Source: a virus
IMG/VR virus record: IMGVR_UViG_3300009164_000169
Span: 1-38,068 of that record
DNA: 38,068 bases
Reading direction: 5' to 3' (one strand)
Shown: in pieces, positions 4,573-37,966 of the stretch
How positions within the stretch are numbered: the first letter of the stretch is position 1
Layout of the letters: each line of letters opens with the position of its first letter
Notes under the pieces: model-generated
What the model saw: only the letters and a program-made list of their open reading frames with translations
What the model was told of the DNA's origin: nothing
Database searches by the model: none
Translations under genes and position numbers: made by a program

Positions 4573-4577
4573 AATGG

Positions 4578-4618: not shown

Positions 4619-4644
4619 TATATGTATAGTAACAAGGAGCTCAA

Positions 4645-12099: not shown

Positions 12100-12125
12100 A
12101 ATTAATTCTTTCCTTTATATTAAGT

Positions 12126-14375
12126 TCACAGGTCTTTAATATAGACCCAACCTTTAAATCCCGGTACCATTGTAAACGTTATTACTCCGGCATTGCTAGG
12201 TATTCCATTTGGACCATAGCTAGTAACAAGTGTGTTTGTACTTAAAATTTCAGTTACAATCTGTCCCTGAGAATAGCCGTTACCGCTTATTACGGCTCCT
12301 GCTCCAATTCCTGCTGTGCTGTCAATGACTAAAGAGGTGCCTGTATGAATAACATATTGAGCAGTCTCTGTAACATTAATCGATCCGTCATTTGAAATAA
12401 CTTGGAACAATTTACTGGTATAATTACATGTCGGTAACGGACCAGTGACTGTTACTAGGCCAGCAACGTCAGTTACTATAGTAGTTGCTGTATTAAATGA
12501 TGTTGTAATACTTGTAACTGTATTTGTGCTTGTTACAGTATACGAATAAGGAATTTTATTTTCGCTTAGGTCTAATATAAATGTAGCACTAGACGCAACG
12601 TATGTAGAACATAAAACTGCGGCTCGTGTTCCTGGAGGCTGAGCATAGTATTTTACATCGCCGCCGTCTACTGGCAATAGAATATCTAAATAATTTTTAA
12701 CTGACGCATTGACATTAGTAAATCCAGTTACATCCATAGACAATGCATGTGTCTTACGACCATAATCGCCCAGAGCACTTGCTAGAGCGTTATCTACATA
12801 TCGTTTATTAACTGCACGTTTATTTTCAACATCGTTTTGATCAGTAATGTATCCAAGATTTGGTTCAGCAACATTAAACAGACCGCTATTATTAAAACTG
12901 ATATACTTATTGTATCCGCCAAGACTGCCCGGCTCGATATAAAGCGGTCCAGTTGATTTAATTGTGCCAGTTGTTAGTATTAACTGACTTGCAGCGTGTG
13001 TACTATCGGACCAAGATATATCACCAATAGTTAACAAATCTAAACCAGATATGCCGGGACTACCAATAGTTCTCAAATACGGAGCGTATAAGACAGCATT
13101 ACCTAATGCGCCGTCTGTTCCTAATACTTTGTTATCGCCTAAATAAATGTCTGCGCCAACTTTTAATCCGTCGTTAGTGGTCCATCTGCCCGATGCTAGT
13201 GTTCCTTGATATAACAAGTAATGGTTTGTACTTCCGGGGTTATCAATTAAAATACCCGAGCCGTTAATACCAGAATCAGTTGCCGGTTGCCCTGTTCCAA
13301 TTAAAATTTGTTTTCCGTTTGCTCTAATTACATCAACTTCAATGTAATTTGTTGATCCCTTAACATTTAAATCTCCGTAGATATCAACGTCTTTATGTAT
13401 CTCAACTTTATTAGAAGCCACGGTTGCTGTAAATAACCCAAGTCCATTGTTAACACTATCAATCATGATAGCATTCTTTTGAGTTTGAGTTACGCCGGTC
13501 TGTGTAGTGTATCGAATAAATGTTTTTGCGCCGGCATCAGTGTTTAATAAAATTGTATCATTTGAAGGAGAGTAAATTCTAAATACTGTACCAGTACCGC
13601 CAGTTACTAACCCAGGGCCAATACCAAGACCTTCAGGATTGTATATTTCCACGGATCCGTAAGTATATTCCATTTGATAATCAGAACTTGTTGTAAGATA
13701 CTTTTTAAATACCTGATCAGCAGAGAATCCAGATAAACTATCAGCACTTGTAGCAGTTCCGTAGAATTTTGTTCCACTAATTGTTGACGCTAGTGTAAAT
13801 CCTTTTCTAATTGTACTTGTAGAAGAAATATGTAACGGATTTGATGCTATGTTTAAAGGAATTTCAATATCGCTTGCCCAACCAATTAATACACCATTTG
13901 TATAAAAATTAATAATGGGGCGTAGCGTATTGGTAGAACTTTCTACTACAGTTTCTACAATCGCTCCAGTCTTTCCGTCAAAGTCACTATAAGGTTTAGC
14001 TAGATCAACTAATGAAACTCCGTTATAATACCATAACTTTTGGGCAGAAGTATCAAACCAAAATTCTCCACCAATTAGTGTAGATGGCTGTGTTGCACTG
14101 ATAACTGGACTGCCTACCGGTTTCCATAAATTATTAGAATAAACTTTCAATTGCCCTTGAGCGGTGTCATACCATAACTGTCCAGATAGTGGACTAGGCG
14201 GAGCAGTTCGTTTGGCAAAATTTTCTAATAGGTGAACAAAATTATTATTAATTGATTCACCGTAGGCATTAGAATTCTTACCGACTAATGTTAAACTTGT
14301 TGAAATACTATCAGCAGACTGATCTGCTAATAGTGCTAACACTCTACCGTTACTATATTTGATTGTATATGCCAT
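12126..14375 (-). CDS. Tail-fibre-like protein C (749 aa)
   Basis: Third paralogue. The shared N-terminal region carries TLVGKNSNAYG, NNNFVHLLENF, GQLWYD, LKVYSNNLWKPVG, GEFWFD, and a RKGFTLAST segment near residue 200. The middle resembles beta-rich fibre shaft with repeated YGDLNVKGS- and GLFTATVASNKVEIH-like strands, and a NKRYVDNAL segment (about residue 525) seen in fibre proteins near chaperone or trimerisation domains. The last 200 residues are Thr/Val/Ser-rich beta strands ending in GFKGWVYIKDL. No enzymatic motif is visible. The ribosome-binding site is weak. It is the only one of the four whose distal part has no recognised end domain. Confidence 0.78.
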   Translation of the reverse strand: MAYTIKYSNGRVLALLADQSADSISTSLTLVGKNSNAYGESINNNFVHLLENFAKRTAPPSPLSGQLWYDTAQGQLKVYSNNLWKPVGSPVISATQPSTLIGGEFWFDTSAQKLWYYNGVSLVDLAKPYSDFDGKTGAIVETVVESSTNTLRPIINFYTNGVLIGWASDIEIPLNIASNPLHISSTSTIRKGFTLASTISGTKFYGTATSADSLSGFSADQVFKKYLTTSSDYQMEYTYGSVEIYNPEGLGIGPGLVTGGTGTVFRIYSPSNDTILLNTDAGAKTFIRYTTQTGVTQTQKNAIMIDSVNNGLGLFTATVASNKVEIHKDVDIYGDLNVKGSTNYIEVDVIRANGKQILIGTGQPATDSGINGSGILIDNPGSTNHYLLYQGTLASGRWTTNDGLKVGADIYLGDNKVLGTDGALGNAVLYAPYLRTIGSPGISGLDLLTIGDISWSDSTHAASQLILTTGTIKSTGPLYIEPGSLGGYNKYISFNNSGLFNVAEPNLGYITDQNDVENKRAVNKRYVDNALASALGDYGRKTHALSMDVTGFTNVNASVKNYLDILLPVDGGDVKYYAQPPGTRAAVLCSTYVASSATFILDLSENKIPYSYTVTSTNTVTSITTSFNTATTIVTDVAGLVTVTGPLPTCNYTSKLFQVISNDGSINVTETAQYVIHTGTSLVIDSTAGIGAGAVISGNGYSQGQIVTEILSTNTLVTSYGPNGIPSNAGVITFTMVPGFKGWVYIKDL
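14212..14233. repeat. 22-base repeat in fibre C, shared with fibre D
   Basis: This stretch, which encodes the conserved LLENFA region, is identical base for base to 16997-17018 in fibre D. A close variant lies in fibre B near 11935-11953. It marks a site where homologous exchange between the fibre genes could occur. Confidence 0.75.
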
Positions 14376-14379
14376 AGTC

Positions 14380-17175: not shown

Positions 17176-17176
17176 C

Positions 17177-17836
17177 TTATGCTCCTACTCCGCTAATACT
17201 TTGAATACGGATTGTGTAGTCAATTTGAATTAAACGATTTAATGATTTTTGAACAGGGTGAAAGATAACATGAGTTAATAACGGCCCCGAGTTTGCTCCA
17301 TCAGTACTATAAGCCTTCAAACCCAATTCATCAAAAATAAAATCATTTGATAAGTTTGTACCTGTATCAAACGCCAATTGTCCGCTTGGTTCACCGAAAT
17401 CTAACAGACAACTAACTAATAGGTCACTATAAGTGGCTCCCGATACATGACGTGCTTCCATGAAGTTTCGTGTCGGATCCAGGTCTAAAACACTGGATGC
17501 ATCGACGTTTTTGTAGTAAGTTTGATTATAAAGTTGACTATTTTGCCCCAGGGTGTTAGGAGTTAGATAAGTGATAATCCCAGTGGGATCAATACGACTT
17601 CCACCGTTTCCAAAAACCATTTCAGTAATAAAGCCACTGCCAAGATTACCAATACTTCTTACCAAAGCAAGGCTAAAGTTTTCATAATGAATAGCATTAC
17701 GCTTGTCGACATAGACGTGCTTAGTTTCGGGATCAAAAATCTTGATGTGACCCTGTAGTTTTACGGCTCCGGATTCATTTAAATCCGAGCTAGGTTGAGG
17801 TTGTTGTACTGGCATTTTGTTCTCATCATTAGTCAT
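17177..17836 (-). CDS. Conserved structural-like protein in the tail operon (219 aa)
   Basis: I do not recognise a named T4 protein; in particular it does not read like gp8, gp9 or gp11. The start at 17836 (MTNDENK) leaves a 22-base gap after the upstream stop. An in-frame ATG at 17881 would add 15 residues and overlap the collagen-like gene by 23 bases. Neither has a clear Shine-Dalgarno sequence. A Pro/Gln-rich, disordered N-terminus of about 25 residues is followed by VKLQGHIKIFDPETKHVYVD, an NAIHYENFSLALVRSIGN segment, and repeated beta strands ending in LIQIDYTIRIQSISGVGA. It lies among baseplate and fibre genes with gaps of one or a few bases, which points to a virion component, perhaps linking fibres to the baseplate. 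Confidence 0.72.
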   Translation of the reverse strand: MTNDENKMPVQQPQPSSDLNESGAVKLQGHIKIFDPETKHVYVDKRNAIHYENFSLALVRSIGNLGSGFITEMVFGNGGSRIDPTGIITYLTPNTLGQNSQLYNQTYYKNVDASSVLDLDPTRNFMEARHVSGATYSDLLVSCLLDFGEPSGQLAFDTGTNLSNDFIFDELGLKAYSTDGANSGPLLTHVIFHPVQKSLNRLIQIDYTIRIQSISGVGA

Positions 17837-17841
17837 AGTGC

Positions 17842-17849
17842 TATTTATT
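17842..17849 (-). promoter_or_regulatory. Possible late promoter motif (AATAAATA on - strand)
   Basis: The motif lies in the short gap before the 219-residue protein. With T4 spacing the transcript would begin at about 17836, right at the chosen ATG, so it would be leaderless for that gene. It may be a chance match or serve the genes further on. Confidence 0.3.
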
Positions 17850-17858
17850 CTTATAAAA

Positions 17859-19466
17859 TTAGGCGATCTGTGTTCTTCCATTTACTGTAAACCAATTAGT
17901 ACCATTAAAGAAACAAGGTTGTGCTCCGCCAGACGCATCAGTTACATAAACCATTGCTCCTCGCTGTGTAATGCCGCCAAGTGCCGATAATTGTGCTGTA
18001 GTTGCGTTAGTTAATACAAACGGGGCGTTAGTTGTAATTTGCCCAGCGGCTTTAAGTGCTAGATCGTTTCCACTTTGTACTGTAGTAATTCCAACAGTAC
18101 TTACAGTTAGTGTACTTACATACAATGTCTGTACTGTATACGTGTTTCCGGTAATGACCATTGCGCCGGTTGCGCCACTAGAGCCGGCTGCTCCGGTTGC
18201 TCCTGCCGGGCCAGTAGATCCTTGAACACCTGTTGCTCCTTGAGGAGAAACATCACCAATATTAATTGTACCTACCATTGCTGAATGGAACTGACAAATA
18301 TAATATAGGGTACTAGGAGCATTATACGGAACTGCAAAAGTTATAGTTCCAGACTGGGCTCCGTTGTTAGTTACACCAGAACTATAAGCATCGCCAGTTC
18401 CAGTAGATTGGGCAGTTTTGATCCAAAATGGATGTCCTGATGCGTTTACACTAAACGTATAAGTAAATCCGCGTAGTAAGAATAACGTTGGATCATTGGA
18501 TCCATCAATAACATAGGCCGAAGATCCGCTGTTTGTCACTGTATACACTCTTGCGCCACTTAGTCCTTGAACTCCGGTAGCACCAGTAGCACCTACTCCA
18601 GATGGGCCAGTTGCCCCTTGAACGCCAGTTGCGCCAGTTGCGCCATTAAGTCCAGCCGAGCCCGATGCGCCGGTGGCACCTACTCCAGATGGGCCAGTTG
18701 CTCCCATAATACCTTCAGGTCCTCCTGCGCCAGTTGCTCCTGTTGGTCCAGACGCACCTGTTGCTCCTGCGCCAGTAGCACCCGTGTTGCCCTGGGGACC
18801 TGTTGCTCCGGCAGCACCTGTTGCGCCCTGACCTGCAAATAGTCCGTCTAATCCAGTAGCACCTTGAGATCCGGTTACACCAGTAGAACCTCGTATTCCG
18901 GTAGAACCAGTATTTCCAATAGGACCTTGTGTTCCAGTAGCCCCTGTTGCTCCCTGTAATCCTGATTGTCCTTGAGGACCAGTGGACCCAGTTGCTCCCT
19001 GTGCCGCATATAATCCATCTAATCCAGTTGCTCCTTGAGAACCACTTGGTCCTGTAGCACCAGTTGATCCTCTGCCAGTAGCGCCAGTAGCACCTGCTTG
19101 TCCTTGAACACCAGTAGAACCCCTGGCACCTAACCCAGTAGCACCTTGCGGGCCAGTTGCGCCTGTTGCTCCGTCTGGTCCTGTGCCCCCAACAGCAACA
19201 GCAGTACCCGGAGTCCCTTGTGGTCCTTGTGGTCCTGTAGACCCGGTTGCGCCATCATTTCCTGTGGAACCTTTAACTCCTGTAGCACCTGGATTACCCA
19301 CAGGCCCTGTTAAACCAGTTGATCCTGTCGGTCCTTTAAGTTGACTAGCCAGTGTATTCTTTAGTGTACCGATGCTTAATTTATAGTTTGTGCCGCCGTC
19401 TAAAATAGGCATAACAGCCGCATTTGACGGGTTAGTGCTTGTTGTTAAATCTGATATTCTTGCCAT
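17859..19466 (-). CDS. Collagen-like fibre protein with inserted cupredoxin-like domain (535 aa)
   Basis: The N-terminal 45 residues form a small anchor ([20 protein letters not shown]). Residues about 45-305 are Gly-X-Y triplets rich in GATGATG and GPQG, which fold as a collagen-like triple helix in phage fibres. A beta domain interrupts the collagen (about residues 305-405). It ends in [14 protein letters not shown] and has H345 in GHPFWIK plus C391, H394 and M397, the set of ligands of a type-1 copper site. A short collagen stretch and a C-terminal domain with [20 protein letters not shown] and WFTVNGR follow. Its gene lies 1 base from the end of the giant gene. It is probably a trimeric whisker or fibre; copper binding is inferred only from residues. 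Confidence 0.85.
18160..19340 (-). repeat. Gly-X-Y (collagen-like) triplet-repeat coding region
   Basis: About 85 Gly-X-Y triplets in two stretches, broken by the cupredoxin-like domain. The DNA is internally repetitive, with many variants of CCAGTTGCTCC and CCTGTAGCACC on the + strand, and two similar 'LDGL' blocks near 18835-18850 and 19010-19025. Such DNA is prone to in-frame length change. Confidence 0.8.
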
Positions 19467-19467
19467 A

Positions 19468-22400
19468 TTATTCGCCTACAAAAGGTTCTCCGCTTTCGGT
19501 ATCGATGGTGTCACCGAGTTCTGTAACTAGCACAGGTTGTGAATCTGTATTTTGTCCGTATAGATATTTATCTGGCAATCTAGCAGGGCTTGCTCGTAGG
19601 AACCTAACTTGTTCAGTAGTCTGATCAACTAGCGACTTGTCGCTACTAATATCATACCAAATCTCAGTTCCTCTATAAACAACCCTAACTATTGATTCCA
19701 TTTGCTTTGAAACGCCAGTGTTGTCAATAAAAGTAGGATCTAGTGGAACAAATAATTCTAAGAAATATCGATCATTGTAACGTTTAATTCTATATTCATC
19801 ACTGACAATTGGGTCTCCGAACACGCCCTGACTTGTTACTTCTCCACTGTCGTATGTCAACGTACCTTGTTTACGCATTTCTGATAACGAATGTTTCAAC
19901 ATACGACCTTGGTAATATACACTGGCCTGACGAGACAAGTCGTTTTCGCTACCGCTAAACGGAATACCTGTTAGTTCCCAAATTGATGTACCGGTAGTAG
20001 AAATCTGTGTTGACGTTGTAACTTGACGCTTTCCCGGAATAAGTTTTGTAGTAACTACAGTACGGGGTACATTTAAAACATACGCATCTGAAACATTTTG
20101 CCATAACAATTTAACTGCGCTTCCAGGCACAAATGTATATCCCGGATTGATCGTAGCTGTCACGTTTATATACCAAACAGTCGAAGTTGTACCTTGTGAG
20201 TTCTTAACAAATCGAGGGCCAAACAATGGAATCCCAAACGCTGTCTCGTATTCTTTTTTGTATCCGTTATAAAGAGCATTAACATCAAATACAACAGGAC
20301 CTGCTACTAACGATATTGTACCAGATGTTCGATTTGCTACCTGAGTCTGAAGTCTTGTAAACCAAGAAGTATTGGCTCTTGGTTTATTACCAATACTGTC
20401 TTCCGAAATAGCTAACCATTTTACCTCACCTGCTGTAGGATTGTTTCCTGCCCATAGATAGTTTGTATCGGAGTTAAAAGATAAAAATGTTGTATAGTTA
20501 ACTGCATTAACTAAATCAAATGTATAGTCTAATATTGCTCCTTGATCAATATAACTTCTTGTAACTACAGATGTGAATGTAGTTGTAGAAACTGTAACTG
20601 AAGAATCTGGGATTTCAGGACTTGATACAACGTCAAAACTTGATGTAGTGCTTGTAACAGTTGTTGAAATATTGATAGTTTTAGGCGTATCTTTAATTCT
20701 AATAGTTTGATTAATACCTTGATCAAGTACTGAAGATCCGGCAACGTGTTGATCTTTAATGCCTGTTCCCAATGCTCCGCGTTTTAATTGTGTTAAACGA
20801 TTGCCTATCATTTGATAGAACTCAATTCGTTCGCCGTCAACTAATATCACTCCTGGTATGCGATTAACTAAATCAGGAGGTGTTAGTTTATCAGCATCTA
20901 GTACACTGATGCTTTCATCACTAGGATTTAGATCGGCTATTAGTTCAGTTACGTTTGCTCCGCTTAATCGTTTGTAATGTGTACGACCAAAATTATCGTA
21001 GAACATTCTAAATCCAATTAGGTCGTGACTACCGTAGTCAAACGATGTTATAACTACGTCGTCAGTTTCTGCTAGAGAAACATTTAAACGTACTGTCATG
21101 CGATCTGAATCAAGTTTATAATCTTCTTCATTAATTAACGGACGTCCGTTTAGTTCTACCCAAACATAATCAGTATTAAGAGCCGCTCTACTTAACAGAT
21201 AACGTCCACTAGAGTTTCCACTAAATCTTTCTTTTCTAATTCCCAATCCGTCATGATTATTGTATGTTGTAACTCGCAATGTGTCATTACCAGTTTGTTC
21301 AACATTACGCATTAATGTCAAGTATGTTCCGTTAGCAGTTTCGTTAATCTCGTATTCGTGGCCAGCAAGGATAACAATAGCAATAGCATCGCCGTTTACT
21401 ATTTTTCCAGCTTTAAAAGAAATTGTTCCTTTAATTTCTCTAAACTGATAATCTTTGCCTACAAATCTCTTGACTCCGTTTACATAAACTTCAACATCGT
21501 TAGCACTAACAGTACCATAGTCAATTCCTCGAATAACTGGATATGTCTTTTGATTGTTAGCAACAACATAATAAACAATATCAGGCGGTAACAATCTTCT
21601 ACCATCGTATGTAACAATCGCTTGATTGTGTAGTGGTGCTAGTTTACCCGGAGCAGGCTCTAGTTTAAATATACGTTCCTTGTTACTTAGGTTAGCAAAA
21701 ACTTGTTCATTAACTTCATTGAAAGCCTTAACTGGTGCGGCAAAGAACCACACTTGTAATACATCTCCAATAGATAATTCATTAGGTAATTCAATAACTA
21801 TACGACCTCTATTTTTAGAAGTTTTCTTAATATAGTTTGTAATACTAACGCCATTCAAAGTAACATATTCACTTTGAATAGTAGTGTATTCAGATTCAAA
21901 TTCAAACTCTGTAAAAGATAATTCTCTTCCAGTAATTGTAACAGAACTTGATTCTAACATTCTTGTTCCGCCAACGCCCACACTAGTAATTGATAATACT
22001 TGCGGAGTTGATGTAGATATTGTTTGTACTAACCCTTGAGGTTTGAACGGGTCAAAACTTCCCTTGCCGGCGTACTTCCAATCACCGCCATTCTTAGTAC
22101 TATAGAATACGTGGCTAGTGTTGTTAGCAATCTGCGATGGACTTACAATGACCCCTGCTCCAGGATTACCGATTGTTCCGGCATTGGCAATACCAAATAC
22201 TGAACCAATGTCTGATCCTGTTCCAGGGCCAGTGAACAACGTTTCATAAATTGTTTCAACATATTGATTAGTTCCGTCACTGTATAAGGTACATTCATAA
22301 TCGTACGCAGGAATTGTAGGAGTGTCATTTCGTTTTACATAATGACTACCTTGGAATCTCATACGCCAATATTTAAAATTACCAATAGTACCGGTAGCTC

Positions 22401-25400
22401 TAAAGATACCCGGTTCTTCACCAGTTTCTAAAGGTTGGCCGTTTACGCCGTATCCCTGCCATAAGTCAGTATACTCGGCATAGATTGCTGGAAACGGAAG
22501 AACTCCAACAGCCACAGGTGTATACAATCCTGTGCCGCCACCAAATGTCAAGTAGCCGTTTGTTCCTACGTATAGTTCTGTAAACTTTGTTCCAAACATA
22601 TTCCATTCAAAGCCAATTGGGTATGGCCCTTGATAGAAGTCGTCAACGTTACCGCCAGTGTCCTGTATGATATTTTCAAAGTTACCTTCTCTACGAGGAC
22701 CAATAACAGTCTTAGTATAATAAGGACCAGTAACGTCTGTTGTTGTGCTTACAACGTTGGTAACGGTAAACACATTAAGTTGATTAGTATTAAAGTCTAC
22801 TAGATAATCAAGATTCCATGTCATTGGCGTGTTACCTAACAACACCTGTACACTAGCAGTAGATGCTGGTCTAACTCCGATATCAAATACATAATTTGAT
22901 CCGTCGGCAATATATTTTCTCGATGAAATTGTTGCTGAACTTGTAGCAGGTCTTGTATAAACACTAATGCCCAACGTGTCGCTCACACGCCCTGGCAAGT
23001 TTTCTTCTGGACCGTGGCTATTGTCGGGAGTAACAAATCCGTCTCCGTCGATATTGATTCCGGCAATACTGTTATTTCTTGGATCGTCTAGAGTTCTAGC
23101 AATTCTCTTGTCAACAGTTCCACCATCAATGTATGTGTCAATGTCAAGATCAGACGGAGTAACTGAACCATCGTCTGTTGTTAATCTAAAGTCAACAATA
23201 GTATCAGTTGATAGTAATGTGCCAACATTAACAGTATTCTTTATTCCGTTACCGATGAATGTAGAAGTAGTAGCGTATATGTTAGTTGATGCTGTAGTTC
23301 CATAATATGGATCGTCAATTCGTCTTGTAACAACAGTACCATTTACATTGTCAGTTGTGTAAATTGTAAGTTTTTGTCCAACAGCAGGAATATATGGCAA
23401 TGTGTATGACGTAGTTACATCAGACCCGTAAGTGCTATGATATCCAGCAGTTAGAGAATAATCATCCCATGTGCTAGATGCCCAGCCAGTTGTATCCCAG
23501 CCCGCAGAGTTACGGAAAGGCAAGGTGTCAACTGTTACTCCTGGATATTCTAATCCACTCATTAACATTGTTGCTGTGTTACCTGGCATGCCTGCTACTG
23601 GTTGATAGTAGTCACGAATACGGTCAACAGCATTGTATATTGATAGATGTTTATTATATGCTACAGTAACAACATCTTTATTTTTAGGAACTACGCCTAA
23701 AATTATCTTAGAACGCTTCTTAGTATACCCGTCAGTTTCTGTATAGTTTTCTAAGGTATATGTGTTAGGCAATACTAAAATACCATTGATTTTAACTGTA
23801 AAGTTTTCAATATTAGATTCTGGATACCAAGTAAGGTAAAATTCACGAGTACTGTCATCTCCAATGAAGGTGTCAAGAGTTCGTTTTTCTCCAATCTCAT
23901 TATAACCACTCACTCGATCAAGTTTAATATGAAGCTTGTTAGTTCTTACTTTGTTATTGGCAATTCTAGCAACTGCTCTTGCTGGTACTACGTTTACATT
24001 TCCGCCGCCAACAAATTCAACACTCGGGGCACATAAGTATCCTTGTCCAGGATTTGTAATACGAATATCAGTAACTTCACCTAGAGAAATAAATGCTTCG
24101 GCAGTTGCTCCAAACCCTGGATCGCCATAGGCACTGACAATTTTAACTTCTGGTGCTGTTCTATATCCGCTGCCACCACTGTATATCAACGCATTAGAAA
24201 CTGTAAATGTATAATTGTTATACCAGTTCTTATAAGGCTGTTGTAATAGCTGAGGAGAGCCAAACGATACTACAGAGAAACTCTTAGTTTCTGTATTGTA
24301 GTAACTAGGCATGTCAAAGTCAGTAGGAACTACTGATGTAAATTCAGATGCTGTGTAATTACTTTGGAATGTTCTTATCTTAGTATGATAAGGTTTAGTT
24401 TCGTTAATATAACTTTCATAATAACTTGTATTTTGAAGTTTATATGTTGGACGTTGATCTAACGCACCGGCATTGTGATTGATAAAGATAAAGCTAGTTT
24501 TAAAGGCCCAGTCTAAGAATTTTTGTTCTGTTAGGGCATACTTAACAGCCTTAAACCATAACTTGTTGTTATAAATTTGCAAATCATCATTTAAGATATC
24601 AACAACTAAAGCAGAAGTAATGTACTCAAGTTCTTTTTCATTACTTTGACTGAAAGGAGTTTGGTCCCACGATGCCGCACTGTCAAATCCGTAATTGTTT
24701 GTATTGTTGTTCCACAATGTATCTAAGAATTGAATTGTTCCTTTTTCTTTGAATACAATATTGTACTCTCGATTAAATGTGCCCGGCTGATTAGACAATG
24801 CTAGCTTCTGAAGTATAATATACTTGTTATCGCCAGGATTATCAATTCTCACGTAACTACCTTCGTTTACAGAAATGATAGGTAGTTGATATGTGTATTG
24901 TAGTGTTTTAACTATAGTTCGTTGTGGCACAAATCCTGGAGCACTCCAGTCGATGTACTTCCAATAATTTGTAACATCAAAACTAGATGTCTGAACGCGA
25001 GTCCATGTTTTAGTAGTATAATCCCACTCGTATTTGCTCCATCGATTGGCAACTGTATCATCAAGATTTACAATAACTCTATGCGGTCTTGCTGTGCCAA
25101 TTAGATTATTATAGCCGTTGCCCTTAGAAACAATACGTACACCAATAATGCTACCTGATATATCAATTATAGTTTGAACTTTTGCGCCGGTGCCGTCACC
25201 TAAGAAATTGACAACAGGGCCTTTCCATGTTATGAAATTTCCAAACTCATCTGTGCTAATTCCAGAAAATTTTCCGTAGCCAAATCCTGGATCTGTAATT
25301 TCAATGTCACGAATTCTTCCATTCTTAAGAATGAAATTAAATTTTGCCTGACGCCAGTAACGTGTAGCAATTGCATCCTTTTCAATATTATCTTCTACTA

Positions 25401-28400
25401 GAACATCATATTCGCCATCCGAAGCATCTGGGTATTGCTCAGACGCATAGAGTTTTTCAAAGTTATAGTTTTCTTCGTTAACCAAGTGCCGAGTAAAGAT
25501 ACTGTTGAGATATTCAATAAGACTACGAATTGCGCCAATACGATCAACAAACATACTTTGGCGAGGACGAATTCCTACACCGTATTTTAATCTATCAGGC
25601 AATGCTGGATCCGGAACAGGATTTCCTAATCGGTCTCTTCCTATATAGCTGTCAATTAATTTTTGTAATAAAGGACTATCAATTGACAATGTACTTCTTG
25701 GATCATTCTCTCTTAAAATTAACCACTCTGTATGTTTGTTAATATCGGAGCCCAGTGTATCCATCTCAACTGACAAGTGAATTCTTGAATCTTTTAGCGT
25801 AGGCTTGATGTTGGTTAACATTAACGCAGACTCTGAAATTACAGAAGCATACTTAATACCCTGTGCCTTAGGATCAACAATTAAGTTTGCAGTTTCAAAA
25901 GCACTTAATCGTCTTTCAGGATTAGAAGGCAAGTTTATTTTATTCTTAACCCAGAAATAATATACATTGGCAAAATTATTGCTTACAGGGTTGTAGACCT
26001 GTTTAATACTGATAACACTATTGTCAGAAAACTTAGGTTGCCCGCTAACACCCTGTGCTAGCCCTTCGTTGGTATCTGCTAGTGCAGCCCATTGACTAGG
26101 CAAATACTTAGACTTGACCCATTCATAAATGTCCACTGTACATCCTGGGAATAGTTTGCCCCAGTTGTTTCTACGGAATTCTAAGTCACCTTGCTCATAC
26201 TGGACATATTTGATACTACTTAGATCCCACCATAATTCGCCAACATGGTCATCTAACCAGTTTGTGTTTGTATCATTAACTGTTCCTGTAATACCTATAG
26301 AATACACAGCAGGGTCAAATACAGTTTTAAATTTAATTTCTTGATCAGCAATACCAGGAATACGTCCTTTGATAGGATCAATAATTTCTAAGTAGTCCAA
26401 TACTTGTTCTTCTTTACTGTCAATAGTAAAGATTCGATTTACTTTTCTTACATCAACAACTGGCTCTTGAACTCTTAATTGACTCCAAGAAATATCTGAT
26501 CCATTGAATACATAGACTTTACCCTTTTCAGCAGACCCCGGAGCACCAACTAGCACCGCATCATCTAGTGCCGATACTGCTAGCCCATATCCGTCGTTGT
26601 CAAGGACTACATCGTTGTTTAAACTTTGACCAAGTACAAACTTAGTATCTAATTTATTATAAACATATACTGACCCAGATGATTCTATATTTCCAGCAAA
26701 TACTGTAGTCTTACTATCAAATGTTGTTTTAGTATTAGCATTAAGAGAACGATCAAATGTTAGTCCCCTATCAATGCCTTGCCCTTGTGTACCAATAATT
26801 AAAGTATTGTTATTGTAGGCTAGAGAAACACCAAACCTTGTATCTGTTGAAAGATTTGGTGCTTTGATTGTTTGTAATGGTACATAGTCAGTTGAACTTG
26901 CATTTAATAATACATATACATACACACATTGCATATCGGGTGCTGATATAAAAAGTGTAGCACCAGTATCGTCAATCAACACTTGTTCGCCAAAATTACC
27001 ATCGTTATCGGGTGATATAATATCTTGAATTATGGAAACATTGTCACCATAATAAACATATACGTTATTACTTCCGGGGGCGCCGACAGCATAATGCACA
27101 CCGTCTTTGCTAGATGTAATACTTGTACCAAACGCACTTCCGGAAGTTAGTCCAGGAGAGTAAAGAACAGTAGGCACTAGTGAAAGATTATTAAAGTCGT
27201 ATACAAATACACGACCTTCTAAATTACTGTGGCCCGGAGAACCTACATATAATTTTTTGTCGCGCATACAAACAGCAGAACCAAATCTAACCGGAGCTGG
27301 AGGTCCTGAGGGATTAGTTAATGTAGTTGTTCCAGAGATTGTATTGTCACTTAAATTTAATGTAGATATCTGAACCATGCCGTTGTTAGATGCAAATCCC
27401 GGTGCTCCAACAATTATGTCTAATGTATTAGCATCGCTATCGTACACGGAGGTAGAGCAATAGCCAAATTCCGAAGTATCGGTACCACCTGTTAATGTTA
27501 TAGGAATAGATATTAATTTAACTAATTGGTTAGCATCACTTCCAAACTTTTTATAAACAACTACTTCGCCGCCGGTATATCCTACTGTAGTTTTATAGTA
27601 TGGAGATCCAACAATAACAAAGTTACCATCAGTGTTTGAAGAGATACTGTATCCGAACTGTTGATTGCGAGTAGTTAAAACTCCAACTTCAGTATTGGTA
27701 AATGTGAATCGGTCATACGCATCAATTTTTTCATACACTGACCATTGATCATTTCCATTGTTATCTACCCAAACTTTTTCTCCAAATACATAATGCTTGA
27801 GGACTTTGTTATCAGCAAGGGCGTCAAGATTTTCGTGTCTGGCAGAGTTAAACATGAAAAGCAATCCAACACTAGGAACAAACGTTGTTGACATTCCTGT
27901 TAATGTTGTGCGAACTTTAATTACATTATAATCAGATACAACTGAAACTTGATACACTCCATTAATTTCAGTACCAAATTGACTAATTGAAATTAAATCT
28001 CCTGGATTTAAATCATGCGGAACGTCTGTTGTAATTGTTAACTCAGTTCCGGGAATTGTAAGAACTGCGTCAATAACTCTAGGAGTTAGCAATGTATAAC
28101 GATACACATCCCAATCTTTATCATCTCGGAACCCTAACCAAATAGTGTCTCCATCATTTAATGCGCGGTTGTTAGCAATGTCAAGCAGACTAGACTTGCT
28201 AAATGCTGTTGCAGTAATGTCATCTAAGCGAACATACCCTGCTGTCGGTAGAATTGTTTCTGTTGGTAATTCATCAAGTGTTGTTGTAGAGAACGGTGCG
28301 TTGTTATAAAACTCAGGTTTGATTAACAAATCACTTTCTGTTTTGTATAATAAAAAGTCAGTAGGATTAATAGGACGTTGACTTACAAAACTAACTATCT

Positions 28401-31400
28401 GAGGATTCTCTTTAAATTTTTCTTCATTTAGTTCAAATTCTAAAATTTGTTCTGTGGCATAGGCGCCATAGGCACCTGTTCTAAATGCCCACTCTTCATT
28501 AAAATCAATGCTAGTTTCTAAACTGACAAGGCTGGCCTTATCCAGTCGATTAATTGTATTACGTGTTCCTTTTTCTTTTATAAATCCTTGATAAAATTTA
28601 TACTGAGTAGTTTGATCAGTAAAAATATTGTCAAGGTAAGTTCGTGGACTATACCCAATTAAATGCTGACTTAGTTTTTGTTGAGCAATATCAAAGTTAT
28701 CAATATCTGTGCTGTAAAAATCTTCAAACTGATTAATTTTTAAATCAAAGTTTGGTAATAGATCAGCAACTGGTTTATTACCTAACACTTGCCATTGTGT
28801 AAAATTAAATGTAGATTTACCTGCTTCTGAATTAATTGCGCTATAATATGTTCCGTTGTATCTTACAACATCTCCTGCGTCATAATCTGTGTACGCAGAC
28901 CAGTCAGTTATTTTTGCTTCATCATAGATAAATCCGGGACTGTTTAAACTTCCAGTCCACTCGGCAGTACGGAAACCTTTTAATTTAATTCTACGTTGAC
29001 GATAGCCCGACTCAATGTCATAGATAATGTCATTAAAGTAACTAGCATTATTAAGAATAATGTTGTGCTCTTTTTGTACAATATTCAATTGGGCAAAATA
29101 AATGCCATCACGTGTGTTAACTGTTTTAATAGTAAACACATTGTCAAGACGTTGCATACTAATTTGATTGCTTGGCATAATTGTGCCGTCAGCTTTTAAT
29201 ATACTATATTCATAAAAACGATTTAATATATTGTCAACAACTCCGTTGTCACTCTTAAATTTAAGAGCATTAGCAAATGGACTGATTGTAATAACACTGT
29301 CAGTATCCCATCCTTGACTAGACCAATATAAGAATTCTTTTGAAGCATAATTCCAATCAAGAATCTGTGACAAATCTTCTTGATATTCGTCAAATACAAA
29401 TCCTTGAACAGATAACCATTCAGCGTAGCCAACAATTACATCATACACTTCTTGTACTGTTTTAAAGACTGTACCATAAGGAACTAACGATGTAGCGGTT
29501 TCAAAACTTCTTGGCTTAATAACACTTACTCCGCCGTCAACTGGTAGCTTAGATAACTGAACAAAATAATTAGAATTAAATGTAGATCCAGATGTGTGAC
29601 TGGTCTTTACTCTATACCATCCATTATTATAATACACAACTTGTCCGGTTTGATAAAATCTTGCGCCAGTTGGGTTAATTGCTCCAACCTGAATAGGACG
29701 ATCAATCTCTTGGCCGCCGGATTGCCATTCTACATACGGCTCGCTCTTACCACCAACTGTAAGCGCAGAGTCAGTTGTTGTATATACTGGATTAAAAATT
29801 GTAAAATACGGATAAGTCTTATCATATCCCTTAAGAATAAATCCATCGGTAGTACGTTGAACAATTAATCCCGAGATACTGGCAACTTGTACAGGATTTC
29901 CTTGATTTAAAAATATCTGATAGTCTTCTGAATTTAAACTAACACCAGGATTTGATGTACTAGGATTAACAGAGTCAATAATAATTTCTAGTTTATCTTT
30001 AGATAAAAATCCGCCTGCTTTATGTAATAGTTGTAAATTTAAAGACGAAAGTTCTTCTTTAAGTTGACTAATAAAACTTTTACGTTCTTGTTTTCCTACT
30101 TCTACAAGAATTGGACTATAGCCCGCGGCAGTGACTTTTTCGTCGTTAACCACATCGCCGTAAATTGATAAATGCGTTGGATTTAAAAATGTTCCAGTAT
30201 CTGTATAAACGTATTGTCCAGCAACAGATTTTTTCATTCGACTTACGTCAAACATTAAACTAAAATAATCTGCCGGTAATGTTGTTGCCAATAAGATCTG
30301 TACGGCAAACGGCCATAGACTATTTCTTCTCCACGCAGACTCAACTGGGCCGCCGTCACCAAACACCCAACTATCAGTTGTACGAATTGGGTTAACACCT
30401 ATTGCAACATTTGCGTTATCAGGAGTTAAAAGATTTCCAGCACTATCAACTGGAATCATTTCTAACAATCCAGGACGAGAGTACATAGAGTTATATGTTT
30501 CTCCTGCCGGATCAGCAATCTTACCTTCAGATAAATCTTGCCACAACAATAAGTTATCAGATGTGTACGGAGCAGGACCATATACTTCTTGCCACCACAT
30601 TGGCTGAACAGGGAACCCCAACATTTCCCACGGATGAGTATGTGGTCGATCAGTGTCAAAGAAATATCTGTAAATACCTCTCCAGTTTCCTGGAATGCGG
30701 CGATTAATTGTAAAATTCTTAGCTGTAGAATAATTATATGTTTTTGAATTATCAACATCTATAGTTTCGTTTGTCTCATAATCAAAACCATAAAAGCCAG
30801 CCCACTTTAGAAATTCTTTTTCTAAAATTCCCATTACATCCGCATAACCGTAATTACTCTTCCTGAACACACCAGGTAGTACCGAGTTAATATCAATTAG
30901 ATCTGGATTGTAATCTACTTTGATGTTGTTGTAAACACGTTTTTCAAACTCTAAAAGAATATCGTCTCGGAAGTCTCCATACGCTAGAGTTATACTTCCG
31001 TCATGTCCTTCAATAACCATTTGAGGGCCATTGGCATACGTGTCATCGAGATACATACGTGGTTCAAATTTTGGATACAATCCTAACTTAGTCGGAGTGA
31101 ACGGAACAAAACATCCTACAGTACTGGCATAATCTTTAACAGTAATTGTATCACCTTTTGTTAAGACAATGTTTAAAATTACAATAGGAAGATAAGGATC
31201 AAATGTATAATCCTTTTTATATAAAAGTTGTGTTATTTCTCCGGTGCTTACGCTTGTATGATAAACTATCACTCCTCTAGAATTTAACTTGTCTAAAGAA
31301 AATTCACCGTTGGGCAACGAGTATTCGTTATTTCTAATATTAGAAACAGTATAATTTCTAGTAATAACATTAGCACCATACGGAAGCATATCACTATCAC

Positions 31401-34035
31401 TATAGGGATAATTTCCATCGCGAGTTAAATTTACATTGTGTAAAACAACATCCAGCGCATCAGCAGGAGTATATGTTTGTGTAAGGCTAGAAGCATTTTT
31501 TAATAATGTTAATTTAAATTGATTATATTGCCCACTAACTTTTCTTATAGATCTAACAACATCGTGCTCAGGATCACAAACAAAATAACTGGCAAAACTT
31601 AAAGGGTTTTTATTTGTGATTAAACGTGTGCCATATTGATTAAAATCTGGAATGTCTCGGATATTATTATGGCCAAAGAAATCTCCAACAAAATTGGGAT
31701 GACGATCAGCCGCAGACTTTGCGTGGTCGCTTAACTCACTTAGAGTAAATTGACCGTTAGGACCGTTTAATGGGTTATTAGTATAGCCAATAGATGTTTC
31801 ATAATATCCTGTGTCAGTAGGAGTTGCTCCAGAATAAATCTTAAAAGTTACATTGTCGTTAACTGATAAAGAATTATTAAATGTTACAAATAATCTATCA
31901 CGAGACGGCAATACTCTATAGTCAGTTACATTAAAGGCTTTTTTATTATTAACAAATACTTCAATATTAGGAGAAATAAATCCCGGATTTCTAATAGCGG
32001 TAATTTCAACATTTTTAGTTGCTTCTTCAATTACCTGGTATTGGATAATTGGAATAACATACTCTTTTGCTTCGGTCCAAACTGTAAGATATTTTTGTTC
32101 TGTATCGTTAACTTTTAAAAATCCAGAGTTAGTATAAACTGTAGAATTAACCTCGTTTACTAAATTTGTAAATGAGTCAGTCATATAATAGTTGTTAAAC
32201 AAGTAATATCCTTGATCAGCAACGTTTCTATATTCTAAAGGAAATCCTAGAACAGGATCACTAGCCCCAGAACCTACACTATAACCAAACATCTTTGTTC
32301 CAACAAAGTCACTGTTATAATATGTAGAATCAGAAAAACTTCTGCCTTCACTATCAAATACGTCAAACAGGGGCGCTTGGTTTAGTTTCGTTTTTTGTTG
32401 TGCTTTTACCCATGCTCCAACACCGTTAGTAATTGTATAATACCAACTTGTGCCAGCATTAGTTGCGCCATTAGTAACAACAACACTATCTTTTTCATAT
32501 ACTTGACTGTCTTCAACTTCAGCAAAATGAAGTCTAAAAGTGCCATCGTTATCAATAAACTCTGCCTTGTATACCTTATCTCTAACCAACGGATCTGTGT
32601 CAGCGGCAAATATAACACGCTGACCTTGTTCAACTAAATGTTGATCAACATAATATCCTATTTGTCCTTCGGCTTCACTAAACGCATCTGTAGTAATTGT
32701 ATCAATGTGATCAACGTTTAATTGCGATTGGCTTCCAAAATTGGACAATTGAATGTTTGGTTTAAATTCAATAATAGGTCGCTTTGCTCTGTATTGTTGT
32801 GGCAAGTTAACATCAGACTTATTTGCTGTTGCTGTTGCAATTAATACATCTTGATGGAACCAACGATTATATCGTGACCACGGATTTTTATCCTTGCTTA
32901 TTCTTGAAATAGTAATGTATTCAGGAACAATAGGAATAGTTAAAAAGTTATCAAACGGATACTGATCAAACGGACTAGCATCGAAGTCGTCATCAAGATA
33001 ATCTGTATATGCTTCCGGTGTTTGAAGTTCAGCAATATCAATTAATCGAATAGCGGCTCCTACTCCATCAACAATAAAATCTTTGCCGCTATATTTTTCC
33101 GGAATAACGTCACCAACAAAATGAACTTTCATTCCGTTAGTCAATACCACACCAGCATTAGTAGTGTAATTTTGTTTTCCTAAAACTTCTTTTTCAACGT
33201 TAATAACAGTATCTTCTGTTAAGGTCTTGACAACAATTTCTCCGCCTGTTAGAATATTGTCTTCGCCTACATAATACAATTTTTTAGGAGTATCGTCGGT
33301 GATATCAAGTATAACTTGTCCAACAGAAACACCGTTGTTAGATACAGTATCGTTATAAGCATCATCTGTGCCTTCACTACGTTTTGTTTTAATCCAGAAA
33401 TTATGTGTGCTATTAACATTGAAAATGTACTTTACGCCCCTATACAATGTCAACAATGGATTTGGTGTAAGGCCGTCTGGAGTTAATACAAAGTAAGTTT
33501 TTGTCAACGGATCATCAGATACGCTGTATGTACTTGCTGTATTTTTAGCAACACCAACAACAGGAATAGTATCCGGGCCTTGCGGTACCCAATAATACTG
33601 ATCAAAGTTTATAAACTTATCCCAATCAATGTGTGGGTCATAGCTGTAAAATTTTGGGCGAAATAGTCTGTCTAAATTATTAACAGGCGATCCGTCAAAT
33701 GCTAACTGATTAATTAAATCGTCATAGCTAAATGCTTTAGCAATTTTTTGATTTTTATCTTTAACAATTAATCCCGGCTCAAGTTGATATTTTTTTCTAA
33801 AAGGAAGAGCCTCAGGAATATAAAAATCTTTTGAAGGATTGTATGTTGGAGTAATTTTGCTACCAACCCAGCCGCTGATCTTTTCAATCTTAGCCGGTTG
33901 AATAAGTTGGTCTAATGTACCTGCTAAAAATTTTGTATTTTTATCTGTTCTAAAAACACCAGGAAGTAAATCTACACTACGACGATTGCCACCTGGATTG
34001 TTAACGTCAACAACATTAATAATACTGTTACCCAT
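19468..34035 (-). CDS. Giant baseplate/tail structural protein (4855 aa)
   Basis: A single open frame of 14.6 kb, about 530 kDa, in the slot where T4 carries gp7 after gp6. AGGGG precedes its ATG; it starts 3 bases after the gp6 stop. Visible regions: an N-terminal part starting [20 protein letters not shown]; a cupredoxin-like beta domain at about 185-261 that keeps the HNFWIK histidine but not the C/H/M ligands; [18 protein letters not shown] at about 1815, similar in type to a segment of gp7-like proteins; seven FG-GAP-like blades at about 2120-2515; two blocks of GxGY repeats (about 2915-2980 and 3285-3365); a nidogen-like segment at about 3790-3990 ([11 protein letters not shown]); and a C-terminus with [14 protein letters not shown] and [11 protein letters not shown]. 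No transmembrane segment, peptidase or lysozyme motif was seen. A gp7-related role is inferred from position and that one segment. Confidence 0.85.
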
Positions 34036-34038: not shown

Positions 34039-37000
34039 TTATACCCCTGAAGCAGTTGTTACGATTGGAGTTGAAAGTCCAAGTGCGCTTGATGTTATAG
34101 CATCAATAATTTCAATGTTGTCAACCGTTGCGGCATTAACAAATAGTTCGTTTGATTGGCATGACACTTCTAACAAACTTCCAAAAGAAGAATTAGATTT
34201 TGGTACAATTACAAAGTTTGTGATGTCTGGTGTTAATGAGTTCATTACGTAAGTTGAAAGTTCGCTAAAATAGAAAGGCTGGCCAAAGTCCCAATTTTCA
34301 ATAGCAAAGAAATTTTGTATTGCTGTAAAAATTCTAGACTTAAGATCGTTATCACTAACATTATAAGAGCTATTTCTAACTGCTTTAAAAGTTGCCTGTA
34401 ATGATAACGGTGCGTTTGAACCAAATAAAGGTTTGTACTTAATAGGTTGGAAAATAATTGTGTCGCTAATAGCCTTAATCTGTTCAAGAGCAGGAGAATA
34501 GTTTTCTTCTAAACTACTGCTAGTTGGAGGTGTTGGTTCTGTTCCAGCACCCGATACTAACCAATTTCTGTAGGAGGTGTCATATGTCTTAGTCAACATA
34601 AAAATGTCAATTAAGTTTGTCTTGCTAGGATCTAATCTACGATCGTCGCCGCTATTATGCTGATAATGGAATTTTAATCTATTGCGGCCCACAAATGCTA
34701 GATAGTTTGTTGCTAGTTCAAATGTATTTGTAACAGCAGACCATTTCTTAATAACATTAACGTCTGAATTATAAAAATAATATACAAGGCTAGAGTCAAA
34801 TTCTGTCACAACATCTTCATTGGGATAAGCTACCACTGTGTCTTCAGCAGGGTCAACTGGCATGTATTTCAAACCGTCATCTGACAATTTAAAATAAACA
34901 AAGTGATCTTTATATCCAGTATCTGCCGAAATAGCATCAGGCGCAACAATAGCAGTAAAGCTATCGGGGTCGTCTAATTGGCCATCATTTTGAGCATCAT
35001 AAAAACTAACTTTAACTTTTCTAGGATCTTGATAGCCATCTGGCTCAACTACTAAATCGTCAATTTCCCAAGCCAAATCAACTCCTAACGCAGAGTTAGA
35101 AGTATTACTACTGTTAATTCCCAACACGTTAATTTGATCTTTAATAACTTGTGAATTTACAAAGTCGTAATTTTTTTGACTCTTGTCAAAAAAGAACGAA
35201 GTTTCTTGTTCACTTTCAAACAGATATTCTGTTTTTCTATAATACACTTTGTAGCTCTTTCCTGTCCATTCAAACGCAATTAACCAACTAGAGTCTAGAT
35301 TCTGCGATGATGTATCTGCCTGATATAACAATGAGAAAGGGCTGTACAAATCTACGTCTGTTTCAGAAATAATAAACCACTGCCTTGTTTCTCTATCAAA
35401 ACTTAATCCAAAGTTTCTATAAGATACACATAGGTTAACAATTGCAGTTTCTAAACTGTATGACCAAACGTTAACAAGTTTTGGAATAATTTTAGTAGGG
35501 ACTGCGCCAGTAGGAATTGCGTTACTTAAAATAACTGGTCCAGTTCCGTCAATTAATTTTCCGTTGCCGCCGTTTGCGCCATCACCGATTACATTAACTA
35601 CTTTGGCCCAAATATATTTTGTAGCACCTGGGATATTAGCAGAATCTAATACAATCTTTCCGTTGTAAAAACTACGTGGATAAGTTTTTGTGGGATCAGC
35701 TAAGTCTTTCTTGTCGGAAGCAACAAATTTAACTAACGATCCAGCCGTTACATACTGTAAACTATTTCCACTGAAATATCCTGTTTGCTGAGCTTTTTTA
35801 CTAATAGAATCTTGAAAATATCCAGTAGTTTGATTTGTACTCTTTGTTACTAGATTCCATTCTGTTCCCAATACTGTAGCATCGGGGCGTGGCCATTCTT
35901 GATAATAGAAATTTCTCAGTCCGCTTGATGCGACTACTGTAGCGAGGTCACCCTTTAATACGCCATAAATTTCATTGCGACTAGTAAAAGTAAATTCAAT
36001 ATTTTCTTGTGTATTAGTTTTGTACAAGATTCCATCAGTACCAAAAATATTTGTACTAGAATACTTGCCGCTAACATCACTTAACTCGTAATACTTACTA
36101 ATACCACTTGAGGTTCTGTTGATACTTTTAACCTTAAGAATATCTGTACCAGCACTTAACGGACTAATATTGTAATCTTCAGCAGTAATCATGCGATTCT
36201 GCGTATAGTATGTTTGTGGTGCTTTTAGTTTAATGTCAGCACTTGACTCTGCTCCGCTACTATTGCTTACAGTATATTGTAAACTTAGCGTTAACGTTAA
36301 TATATGAGTCTGACCAATTTTATTTTGATAAGGAACACTAATTTGTATGCCGCGCATTTGGTCAGGTTTAATAACGTAGTTCAACCCGTTGCTCTGACGA
36401 TAGAACAAACGGAACGCTCCTTTTGGAAGATTTCCAAAGTTGCCATCAGCAAAGTTCAAATCAATTTGATCACTTTCTCTAGAAATAACCGCATATATGT
36501 TTCTACTTGAAGAATCTAAACTATTGTAAATTACGTTGTTGCCAGTTAAGCTAGGAACTTTTTCCCATTTAGTTGAATGAGTTCCGTTAGCATCTAACTG
36601 CCATAACCAAACATCATCATCGTTAATATCATTAACGTTAACAGCAACAATTTCATTTTCAGTTGGTGTTGAGATATCAAAAGAACTGGCCTTTAATGTA
36701 CCCTGACGGAAGCTAACAAAGAAGCCAGTATTTTGACTTCCGCTTCCTCTGCTGTCATTTTTAAATAACATGTTAAATTGACTTGCTGGGCGAGGTGTAT
36801 CTTCATATACATAACTCTTACCCGAGAATGTGCTACTAACAATTTCAAAAGGCATGTTTGTTCCGTCGATTGCTTTGTTGTATGAAAAGACTGGAACATC
36901 GGGATTGTTGGAATTAATAGTGTATTGTTCTGTATTAATACCGTCAATTACAGCACGGTCGTTTGGGCGGCCAAATGTAAAATTGCCGGGCATAGCAGAA

Positions 37001-37479
37001 TTAAGAATAGAAACAAACTGCTGATACCATTCACTGTTTGTGCTGTCATTCCATGTAATTGTAGTTTCTGATAGGTTAGTACCGTTGGTATCTAACACAT
37101 TATCTGTTGTATTAACCGCGGAAATCTTTAAAAATCCCTTGGCGGCAACGTTTCTTTTTGGATTATAATTGATTAGTTTAGCAAGACGTAGTATGCTTTC
37201 ACGACGCTCTGCTGTTTCTAAAAAGTTTTCTCTAGCGTTAAGATCAACACGGAAAGATAAGTTTTGACCTAGGTACGCAATAAGGTCAATAAGAGCAATA
37301 TACTCACTAGAATCAATGTAATCGTTAAAGTCTTCTGGATAATTTGCACGTAGATAATTGATCATCGTACGGCGTAGTGTTTCAAAGTCATACGACTTGA
37401 AATCCGCGTTACGGAAGCTTTGGTACAGTTTCTTCCAGTCTTCGGCGACTAAAAGTTTTGTATTTGTTGATGGTATCAT
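34039..37479 (-). CDS. 6: Baseplate wedge protein gp6-like, enlarged (1146 aa)
   Basis: T4 gp6 homologue, the protein that links wedges into the inner ring of the baseplate. The N-terminus matches in type: TLRRTMINYLRANYPEDFND, then IDLIAYLGQNLSFRVDLNAR and ETAERRESILRLAKLINYNP (residues about 36-110), followed by a baseplate-J-like region with GRPNDRAVIDGI, NFADGNFGNLPKGAFRLFYR and MITAEDYN. The C-terminal part (NDLKSRIFTAIQNFFAIENW, FYFSELSTYVMNSLTPDITN, then a Ser/Val-rich end) corresponds to the gp6 dimerisation domain. T4 gp6 is about 660 residues, so about 450 extra residues lie between, roughly 500-950, with YKVYYRKTEYLFESEQ-like beta strands. gp25 is upstream, as in T4-like tail modules. 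A late-promoter motif and hairpin precede the start. Confidence 0.9.
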   Translation of the reverse strand: MIPSTNTKLLVAEDWKKLYQSFRNADFKSYDFETLRRTMINYLRANYPEDFNDYIDSSEYIALIDLIAYLGQNLSFRVDLNARENFLETAERRESILRLAKLINYNPKRNVAAKGFLKISAVNTTDNVLDTNGTNLSETTITWNDSTNSEWYQQFVSILNSAMPGNFTFGRPNDRAVIDGINTEQYTINSNNPDVPVFSYNKAIDGTNMPFEIVSSTFSGKSYVYEDTPRPASQFNMLFKNDSRGSGSQNTGFFVSFRQGTLKASSFDISTPTENEIVAVNVNDINDDDVWLWQLDANGTHSTKWEKVPSLTGNNVIYNSLDSSSRNIYAVISRESDQIDLNFADGNFGNLPKGAFRLFYRQSNGLNYVIKPDQMRGIQISVPYQNKIGQTHILTLTLSLQYTVSNSSGAESSADIKLKAPQTYYTQNRMITAEDYNISPLSAGTDILKVKSINRTSSGISKYYELSDVSGKYSSTNIFGTDGILYKTNTQENIEFTFTSRNEIYGVLKGDLATVVASSGLRNFYYQEWPRPDATVLGTEWNLVTKSTNQTTGYFQDSISKKAQQTGYFSGNSLQYVTAGSLVKFVASDKKDLADPTKTYPRSFYNGKIVLDSANIPGATKYIWAKVVNVIGDGANGGNGKLIDGTGPVILSNAIPTGAVPTKIIPKLVNVWSYSLETAIVNLCVSYRNFGLSFDRETRQWFIISETDVDLYSPFSLLYQADTSSQNLDSSWLIAFEWTGKSYKVYYRKTEYLFESEQETSFFFDKSQKNYDFVNSQVIKDQINVLGINSSNTSNSALGVDLAWEIDDLVVEPDGYQDPRKVKVSFYDAQNDGQLDDPDSFTAIVAPDAISADTGYKDHFVYFKLSDDGLKYMPVDPAEDTVVAYPNEDVVTEFDSSLVYYFYNSDVNVIKKWSAVTNTFELATNYLAFVGRNRLKFHYQHNSGDDRRLDPSKTNLIDIFMLTKTYDTSYRNWLVSGAGTEPTPPTSSSLEENYSPALEQIKAISDTIIFQPIKYKPLFGSNAPLSLQATFKAVRNSSYNVSDNDLKSRIFTAIQNFFAIENWDFGQPFYFSELSTYVMNSLTPDITNFVIVPKSNSSFGSLLEVSCQSNELFVNAATVDNIEIIDAITSSALGLSTPIVTTASGV

Positions 37480-37531: not shown

Positions 37532-37966
37532 TTATACAGACATGCCAACATTTTTGTCAAACGTTATCTGCATATTTTCGCTGATGTCAGTACCTTTGTA
37601 CTTGAGAGTTAGTTCAATTCTAAAGCCATAGTCGGCTTGTGTGATGTCTACTTGTACAGGTATTACACGGGGATCTGAGGCTAAAATACGATTTATATCT
37701 TCTGCTATTTGCTGTTTAATAGCCGGAGTTAACGGTTCAAATAATGTATCCCATATAGTTGTACCATACGTGGGATTCATCAATCTTTCACCTTTCCGTG
37801 TATTAAAATGATTCAGCAAATCTTGTTTAATTAATTCATAGTCAAATAACTTTACACTGGCTGTCTTGTCGTCAACAGTACTAAACCCCTTATAAAAGTG
37901 GCTTTGTTTTACGGTACGTTGTTCTTTACCGTCTGCTGATGTTATTTGTGTTTTTTTATAGGCCAT
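37532..37966 (-). CDS. 25: Baseplate wedge protein gp25-like (144 aa)
   Basis: Homologue of T4 gp25, the conserved core subunit of contractile-tail baseplate wedges, which contacts the first sheath ring. The family's most conserved part is present: LIKQDLLNHFNTRKGERLMN followed by PTYGTTIWDTLFEPL (residues about 44-78), then a helix (IKQQIAEDINRILASDP) and C-terminal strands (VQVDITQADYGFRIELTLKY). The length is close to T4 gp25 (132). It has an N-terminal extension of about 25 residues. No clear Shine-Dalgarno sequence was found before the ATG. It directly precedes gp6, as in T4-like tail gene clusters. Confidence 0.92.
   Translation of the reverse strand: MAYKKTQITSADGKEQRTVKQSHFYKGFSTVDDKTASVKLFDYELIKQDLLNHFNTRKGERLMNPTYGTTIWDTLFEPLTPAIKQQIAEDINRILASDPRVIPVQVDITQADYGFRIELTLKYKGTDISENMQITFDKNVGMSV

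Follow-up and report, generated by a model that had tools for sequence, protein, structure and literature searches.

A probable 4,855-residue giant virion protein encoded behind gp25- and gp6-like genes is a plausible gp7 counterpart in a jumbo-phage family

We analysed IMG/VR virus record IMGVR_UViG_3300009164_000169, a linear record of 38,068 bases that was taken in its entirety (the window) and is certainly a fragment of a larger virus. The window encodes a giant, probable virion structural protein of 4,855 residues (19468..34035, minus strand; all features below lie on the minus strand unless stated otherwise), supported by an intact open reading frame, a match to phrog_10938 and the ratio of nonsynonymous to synonymous substitution rates (dN/dS). 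The giant gene starts with ATG, has no internal stop over 4,855 codons and occupies 38% of the record; given the base composition of the window, the chance of such a stop-free run is about 1e-140. It is preceded by genes for a gp25-like baseplate wedge protein (144 residues, 37532..37966; phrog_261 and phrog_43) and a gp6-like baseplate wedge protein (1,146 residues, 34039..37479; phrog_10646 with 972 bits and the gp6-type phrog_219 with 83 bits), the latter separated from the giant gene by 3 bases. The next gene after the giant encodes a collagen-type tail fibre protein of 535 residues (17859..19466; Pfam Collagen with 110 bits, phrog_6320 and others), and more fibre/spike-like genes follow down to position 7122. 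An initial annotation, made from the window's letters, had reported the uninterrupted 14.6 kb frame, its distance from gp6 and the fibre genes behind it; the frame analysis and profile matches agree on each point, and the description was accurate except that the minus-strand location was left unstated.

The giant frame was recovered from independent data. IMG/VR contig 3300027969_000044 (G001; 166,311 bases, another assembly) carries the identical 4,855-residue frame and differs from the window by 4 mismatches over 38 kb, one of them inside the giant gene, and another locus (L010) is 99.96% identical to the window along 17 kb. At a locus with 91% nucleotide identity (L012), dN was 0.019 and dS was 0.459, corresponding to a dN/dS of about 0.04 over 2,284 codons. 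Intact giant frames of 4,442 to 5,461 residues occur in 22 further, longer IMG/VR records. The initial annotation had considered that reassembly might reveal a frameshift or chimera in the gene. None was seen in the second assembly, and the objection fails because of the agreement with G001 and L010 and the low dN/dS at L012. At one other locus (L035) the giant frame is broken into 9992-18955 (2,988 residues) and 19047-21905 (at least 953 residues), and the close locus L036 is unbroken; the break is either a sequencing error or a genuine split.

By sequence comparison, the giant belongs to a known, widespread family and is not unique. It matched phrog_10938 with 1117.7 bits in four stretches spanning positions 19-2479 of the 3324-position profile. 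A tblastn search with residues 1-1000 retrieved 88 phage records, mostly from jumbo phages, which also supplied the best matches; two scans for more distant relatives yielded 2 and 0 loci. The family is found in at least 175 IMG/VR contigs (one scan) and dozens of isolated jumbo phages, where it is mostly annotated as hypothetical and some records are wrong. Of the 80 IMG/VR loci retained for gene-order comparison, 75 showed the order gp25-gp6-giant and the remaining loci were truncated by contig ends. The same order was found in phages Phosso (giant of 4,555 residues), Atu_ph07 (4,449), PA5oct (3,857) and PBECO4 (3,333), and apparently also in the divergent phage RAS14. Two published relatives, AP-J-162 gp58 (4,455 residues; PMC11242549) and RsoM2USA ORF361 (2,541 residues; PMC8504454), hold the corresponding position according to their tables, and the largest intact relatives reach 5,461 residues. 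The novelty implied by the initial annotation was overstated, since phages of this group regularly carry giants of this kind and cyanophage gp7 proteins as long as about 4,450 residues had already been annotated. The homologue in phage EJP2 (L281, OQ411014, EJP2_232) is labelled D-alanyl-D-alanine carboxypeptidase, probably through a wrong transfer.

Several homologues have been detected in virions. By virion mass spectrometry, phAPEC6 gp245 (381.9 kDa) was identified with 17 peptides and CBB_236 with 21 peptides; these proteins adjoin the baseplate wedge proteins gp244 (PMC7247149) and CBB_237 (PMC5259590), respectively. PA5oct gp355 is annotated in its record as detected by electrospray ionisation tandem mass spectrometry (ESI-MS/MS). 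From these virion-detected homologues, the giant of the window is most likely a virion structural protein, as had been proposed.

The (gp6)2-gp7 unit is the wedge core and is general across contractile systems (PMC6300606, PMC10457771), and gp7 of T4 is a monomer present in six copies (PMC3004832). The giant lies directly behind gp25 and gp6 both in the window and in its relatives, that is, in the gp7 slot where the initial annotation had placed it, and it is indeed several times longer than T4 gp7 (4,855 against 1,032 residues). In four complete relatives neither a T4-type gp7 (phrog_964) nor gp8 (PF09215) was found, and the T4 and S-SM2 controls were detected; separate gp7 and gp8 genes, which the initial annotation would have taken, along with a giant that matches no baseplate fold, as evidence against its reading, were not detected as T4-type genes in these genomes. 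On balance, we favour the explanation that the giant is an enlarged counterpart of gp7 in the baseplate wedge.

A candidate two-helix gp7-like core was placed by hhalign scans at residues 1764-1841 (28513..28746), with a KG[TS] motif at residues 1822-1824. In these scans, gp7 profiles were slid along the alignment of the giants, and the combined two-helix scan covered residues 1-3650. The KG-helix profile peaked at residues 1819-1852 with a score of 25.4 (next site 19.2; reversed decoys at most 16.8), and none of 300 column shuffles matched the single-helix score. The second-best site of the helix-1 profile was at residues 1766-1781, just upstream of the KG helix and in a gp7-like order. The two-helix profile peaked at residues 1764-1841 with a score of 30.1 over 74 columns (E 4.7e-4, probability 32%), compared with 22.5 at the next distinct site and at most 20.5 for reversed decoys. 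These numbers overstate the case, because they come from a series of profiles and settings, with the gap setting picked after a first look. The KG[TS] motif was kept in all 12 distant lineages checked (SCTP-2, RaK2, CBB, GAP32, XaC1, Vibrio 2.275.O, EJP2, Phosso, Atu_ph07, PA5oct, PBECO4 and RAS14), and the helical stretch containing it was the most deeply conserved part checked (113 bits in RAS14). The assignment of residues 1764-1841 as a gp7-like core is suggestive only, a lead rather than proof. Another candidate for gp7 helix 1, the LPGVFR motif at residue 24 with a second copy at residue 1053, was rejected, as the scan preferred residues 1528-1545 and 1766-1781.

Several results weigh against gp7 identity. 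The gp7 models phrog_964, PF21427, PF21428, PF21456 and PF23786 did not match the giant; the controls T4, S-SM2, S-8S55 and phiN3 each matched one or more of them. A Foldseek search against solved structures found no gp7 fold in the two modelled pieces, in which the candidate core had a predicted local distance difference test score (pLDDT) of about 50. The best hhalign probability at the core, 32%, was obtained with gap penalties lowered post hoc, against 8% or less at default settings, and profiles made from T4 only gave no signal at residues 1764-1841. In addition, the PHROG category of phrog_10938 is head and packaging; contrary to this category, its unvarying position behind gp25 and gp6 argues for the baseplate. 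Two other searches were negative as well: hmmsearch with the gp7 KG helix gave scores on the giants no better than on shuffled sequences, though the KG site was the best one in many giants, and hhalign with the gp7 core, using wide windows and few gp7 sequences, gave nothing significant. The gp7 identity proposed in the initial annotation is supported in part: the slot and the absence of a T4-type gp7 from four relatives speak for it, the gp7 family models speak against it, and the candidate core is suggestive. An absorption of gp8 or gp10 was not borne out, as the models of gp8 (PF09215) and of the gp9/10 N-terminus (PF07880) had no match in the giant either. Beyond the directly established intact and conserved gene, conserved slot, family membership and modules, the gp7 identity of the giant is plausible but unproven. 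Elsewhere on the near-identical longer contig, a frame of 3,073 residues matches the T4 gp9/gp10 N-terminal family with 31.7 bits, over the cut-off (G001:C1:11927-12037), and represents a second giant structural gene.

Comparison with known systems shows how far the likeness extends. The members of phrog_10938 include PBECO4 gp538, RaK2_0070, CBB_236, GAP32_230 and phAPEC6 gp245. The giant matches the family profile and lies in the slot after gp25 and gp6, as in PBECO4, and the members CBB_236 and phAPEC6 gp245 were found in virions. The family differs from the giant in length (3,333 residues in PBECO4) and is 25-28% identical to it, and a number of the giant's modules and its long C-terminal portion are missing. 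Atu_ph07 gp180, the Phosso protein, AP-J-162 gp58 and PA5oct gp355 are homologous to the giant along much of the backbone, and the neighbour genes are as in the window in Atu_ph07, Phosso and PA5oct, the three in which they were checked; however, these four homologues are 27-28% identical and carry other modules in their middle and C-terminal parts. Cyanophage proteins in the gp7 slot range from 2,995 to about 4,450 residues (S-SM2 4,156, P-HM1 about 4,450 and S-8S55 3,891), and several are annotated as gp7, baseplate wedge initiator. They resemble the giant in the gp25-gp6-gp7 slot, in size and in common repeat modules, whereas they have an N-terminal core matching PF23786 (Pfam name Baseplate_wedge), which the jumbo-phage giant does not match, its candidate core being internal. 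The gp7 cores of cyanophages and phiN3 aligned to T4 gp7 with hhalign probabilities of 97-99.7%. T4 gp7 itself shares with the giant the slot behind gp6; its core, like the candidate core of the giant, follows a long N-terminal extension, and its FYxxKG motif resembles the KG[TS] site, but no significant sequence or fold match between the two was found.

As the initial annotation had noted, recognisable modules are scattered along the giant. Column conservation among 39 giants defined a conserved backbone at residues 1-3500 (23536..34035), and residues 3501-4855 vary among these relatives, which are under-sampled past residue 4330 or so. The AlphaFold2 (AF2) model of residues 1-1039 (pLDDT 81.7) is mostly beta, and its Foldseek matches were plastocyanin and multicopper oxidases, with a weak match to the N-terminal part of the CBA120 tailspike TSP4. 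The model and these matches reveal a cupredoxin-like beta-sandwich, placed by reading at about residues 165-280 (33196..33543), in which the usual copper ligands are not conserved when the sequence is read by eye. A CBM5/12-like (chitin-binding type) module lies at about residues 1437-1490 (29566..29727; profile matches to chitin-binding domains and Foldseek), and a second one at residues 1712-1739 (28819..28902) matches Pfam PF02839 with an E-value of 4e-5 on the piece and 23.9 bits, under the curated cut-off of 26.2. PF02839 was matched by 7 of 11 giants and cyanophage gp7 proteins. The AF2 model of residues 1040-1990, built with 47 sequences, had a pLDDT of 73.9 overall and formed helices around the KG turn. 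For this piece, Foldseek found its own family in BFVD and, in the PDB, chitin-binding modules only, among them part of the baseplate receptor complex of Milano, at E-values of 0.05 or worse; no gp7 was among the 50 PDB matches listed. A profile of the same residues matched only chitin-binding domains among solved structures, and the complete giant sequence gave no match when searched against solved structures. FG-GAP repeats at about residues 2118-2530 (26446..27684; Pfam FG-GAP_2 with 33.4 bits, over the cut-off) were read by eye as seven beta-propeller blades, and 3 of 11 members have this match. Two repeat modules follow: one common to cyanophage gp7 proteins at about residues 2885-2975 (25111..25383; hmmsearch of the giant profile against gp7s), and a GxGYxxxP module at about residues 3285-3345 (24001..24183) that recurs in cyanophage gp7s as well as in further structural proteins of cyanophages. 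An insertion at residues 3751-4000 (22036..22785) is nearly private to this giant, with an alignment coverage of 5-13% of the 39 giants. A short beta module at residues 4385-4440 (...LKRGALGT) resembles by eye an insert in the cyanophage gp7 core, with weak profile support. Together, the modules suggest an enlarged wedge scaffold bearing surface-contact domains.

Among the alternatives, the giant could, though we doubt it, lack a gp7 core and act as a scaffold at the periphery of the baseplate or in receptor contact, with an unrecognised small protein or the enlarged gp6-like protein supplying the third strand of the wedge bundle. The failure of the gp7 models and of Foldseek on the giant would fit, as would the resemblance of its modules to surface-binding domains and the near doubling of gp6 in length in the relatives (1,146 residues in the window against 660 in T4). 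However, the most deeply conserved stretch, with its KG[TS] motif, is also where the gp7 core profile peaks, and the gp7 slot is occupied while a T4-type gp7 is absent elsewhere in four complete relatives. It is very unlikely that the giant is a polyprotein from which several baseplate proteins are cut post-translationally. Several virion proteins are cleaved in phages that have T4-type prohead proteases, the chain is large and has many modules, and no gp8 occurs elsewhere in the four relatives; against this, the published sources consulted showed neither a cleavage site nor a processed band, and annotations treat the cyanophage giants of this slot as single gp7 proteins. A tape-measure or tail-whisker role, with the wedge genes as mere neighbours, is hardly credible: the size of the giant is within the range of long tail proteins and relatives bear whiskers along the tail, but its modelled parts are beta-rich rather than long and helical, its place behind gp6 is fixed, and the tape measure of Atu_ph07 is predicted elsewhere, as gp701 (PMC6102473). 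Finally, an assembly chimera or fused pseudogene, for which unusual length is the sole point, is ruled out by the second assembly with its single differing base in the gene, by purifying selection and by the 22 additional contigs with intact frames.

If the giant is the enlarged gp7-equivalent, one copy would be present per wedge and six per virion, by analogy with T4 gp7. The helical core at about residues 1764-1841 would join two copies of the gp6-like protein atop the gp25-like sheath initiator, and the remaining chain, mostly beta-rich modules on two long arms flanking the core, would form the outer baseplate. The outer modules may hold the fibres and spikes, and the carbohydrate-binding-type modules and the propeller may contact the cell surface, so that the giant would relay receptor binding to sheath contraction. 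A bolder version, which we regard as rather improbable, is that a gp7 core sits inside a protein of 4.4-5.5 thousand residues that took over the jobs of gp8 and other outer-baseplate proteins; if true, the wedge beyond gp6, gp25 and gp53 would be essentially one polypeptide in this large phage group. Our analysis adds a case for this jumbo-phage family as a gp7 equivalent with a defined core site. The likely gp7 naming and the core site would turn a large virion unknown into a concrete question, that of baseplate growth by modules added to one wedge protein.

Further fibre and edge genes were recognised in the window. The genes at 12126-14375, 9967-12099 and 7122-8480 have a common N-terminal domain (phrog_14394 and phrog_15511), and the gene at 14380-17175 likewise matches phrog_14394. 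Together these genes appear as a tandem fibre/spike set with a common attachment end. The plus strand at 3490-5910 encodes an ATPase (phrog_1297) and, after it, a protein resembling HNH endonucleases (phrog_1314). At the left edge, a QueE-like radical S-adenosylmethionine (SAM) protein (2-565, plus strand) is cut off by the record end; it might serve a 7-deazaguanine DNA modification or tRNA pathway.

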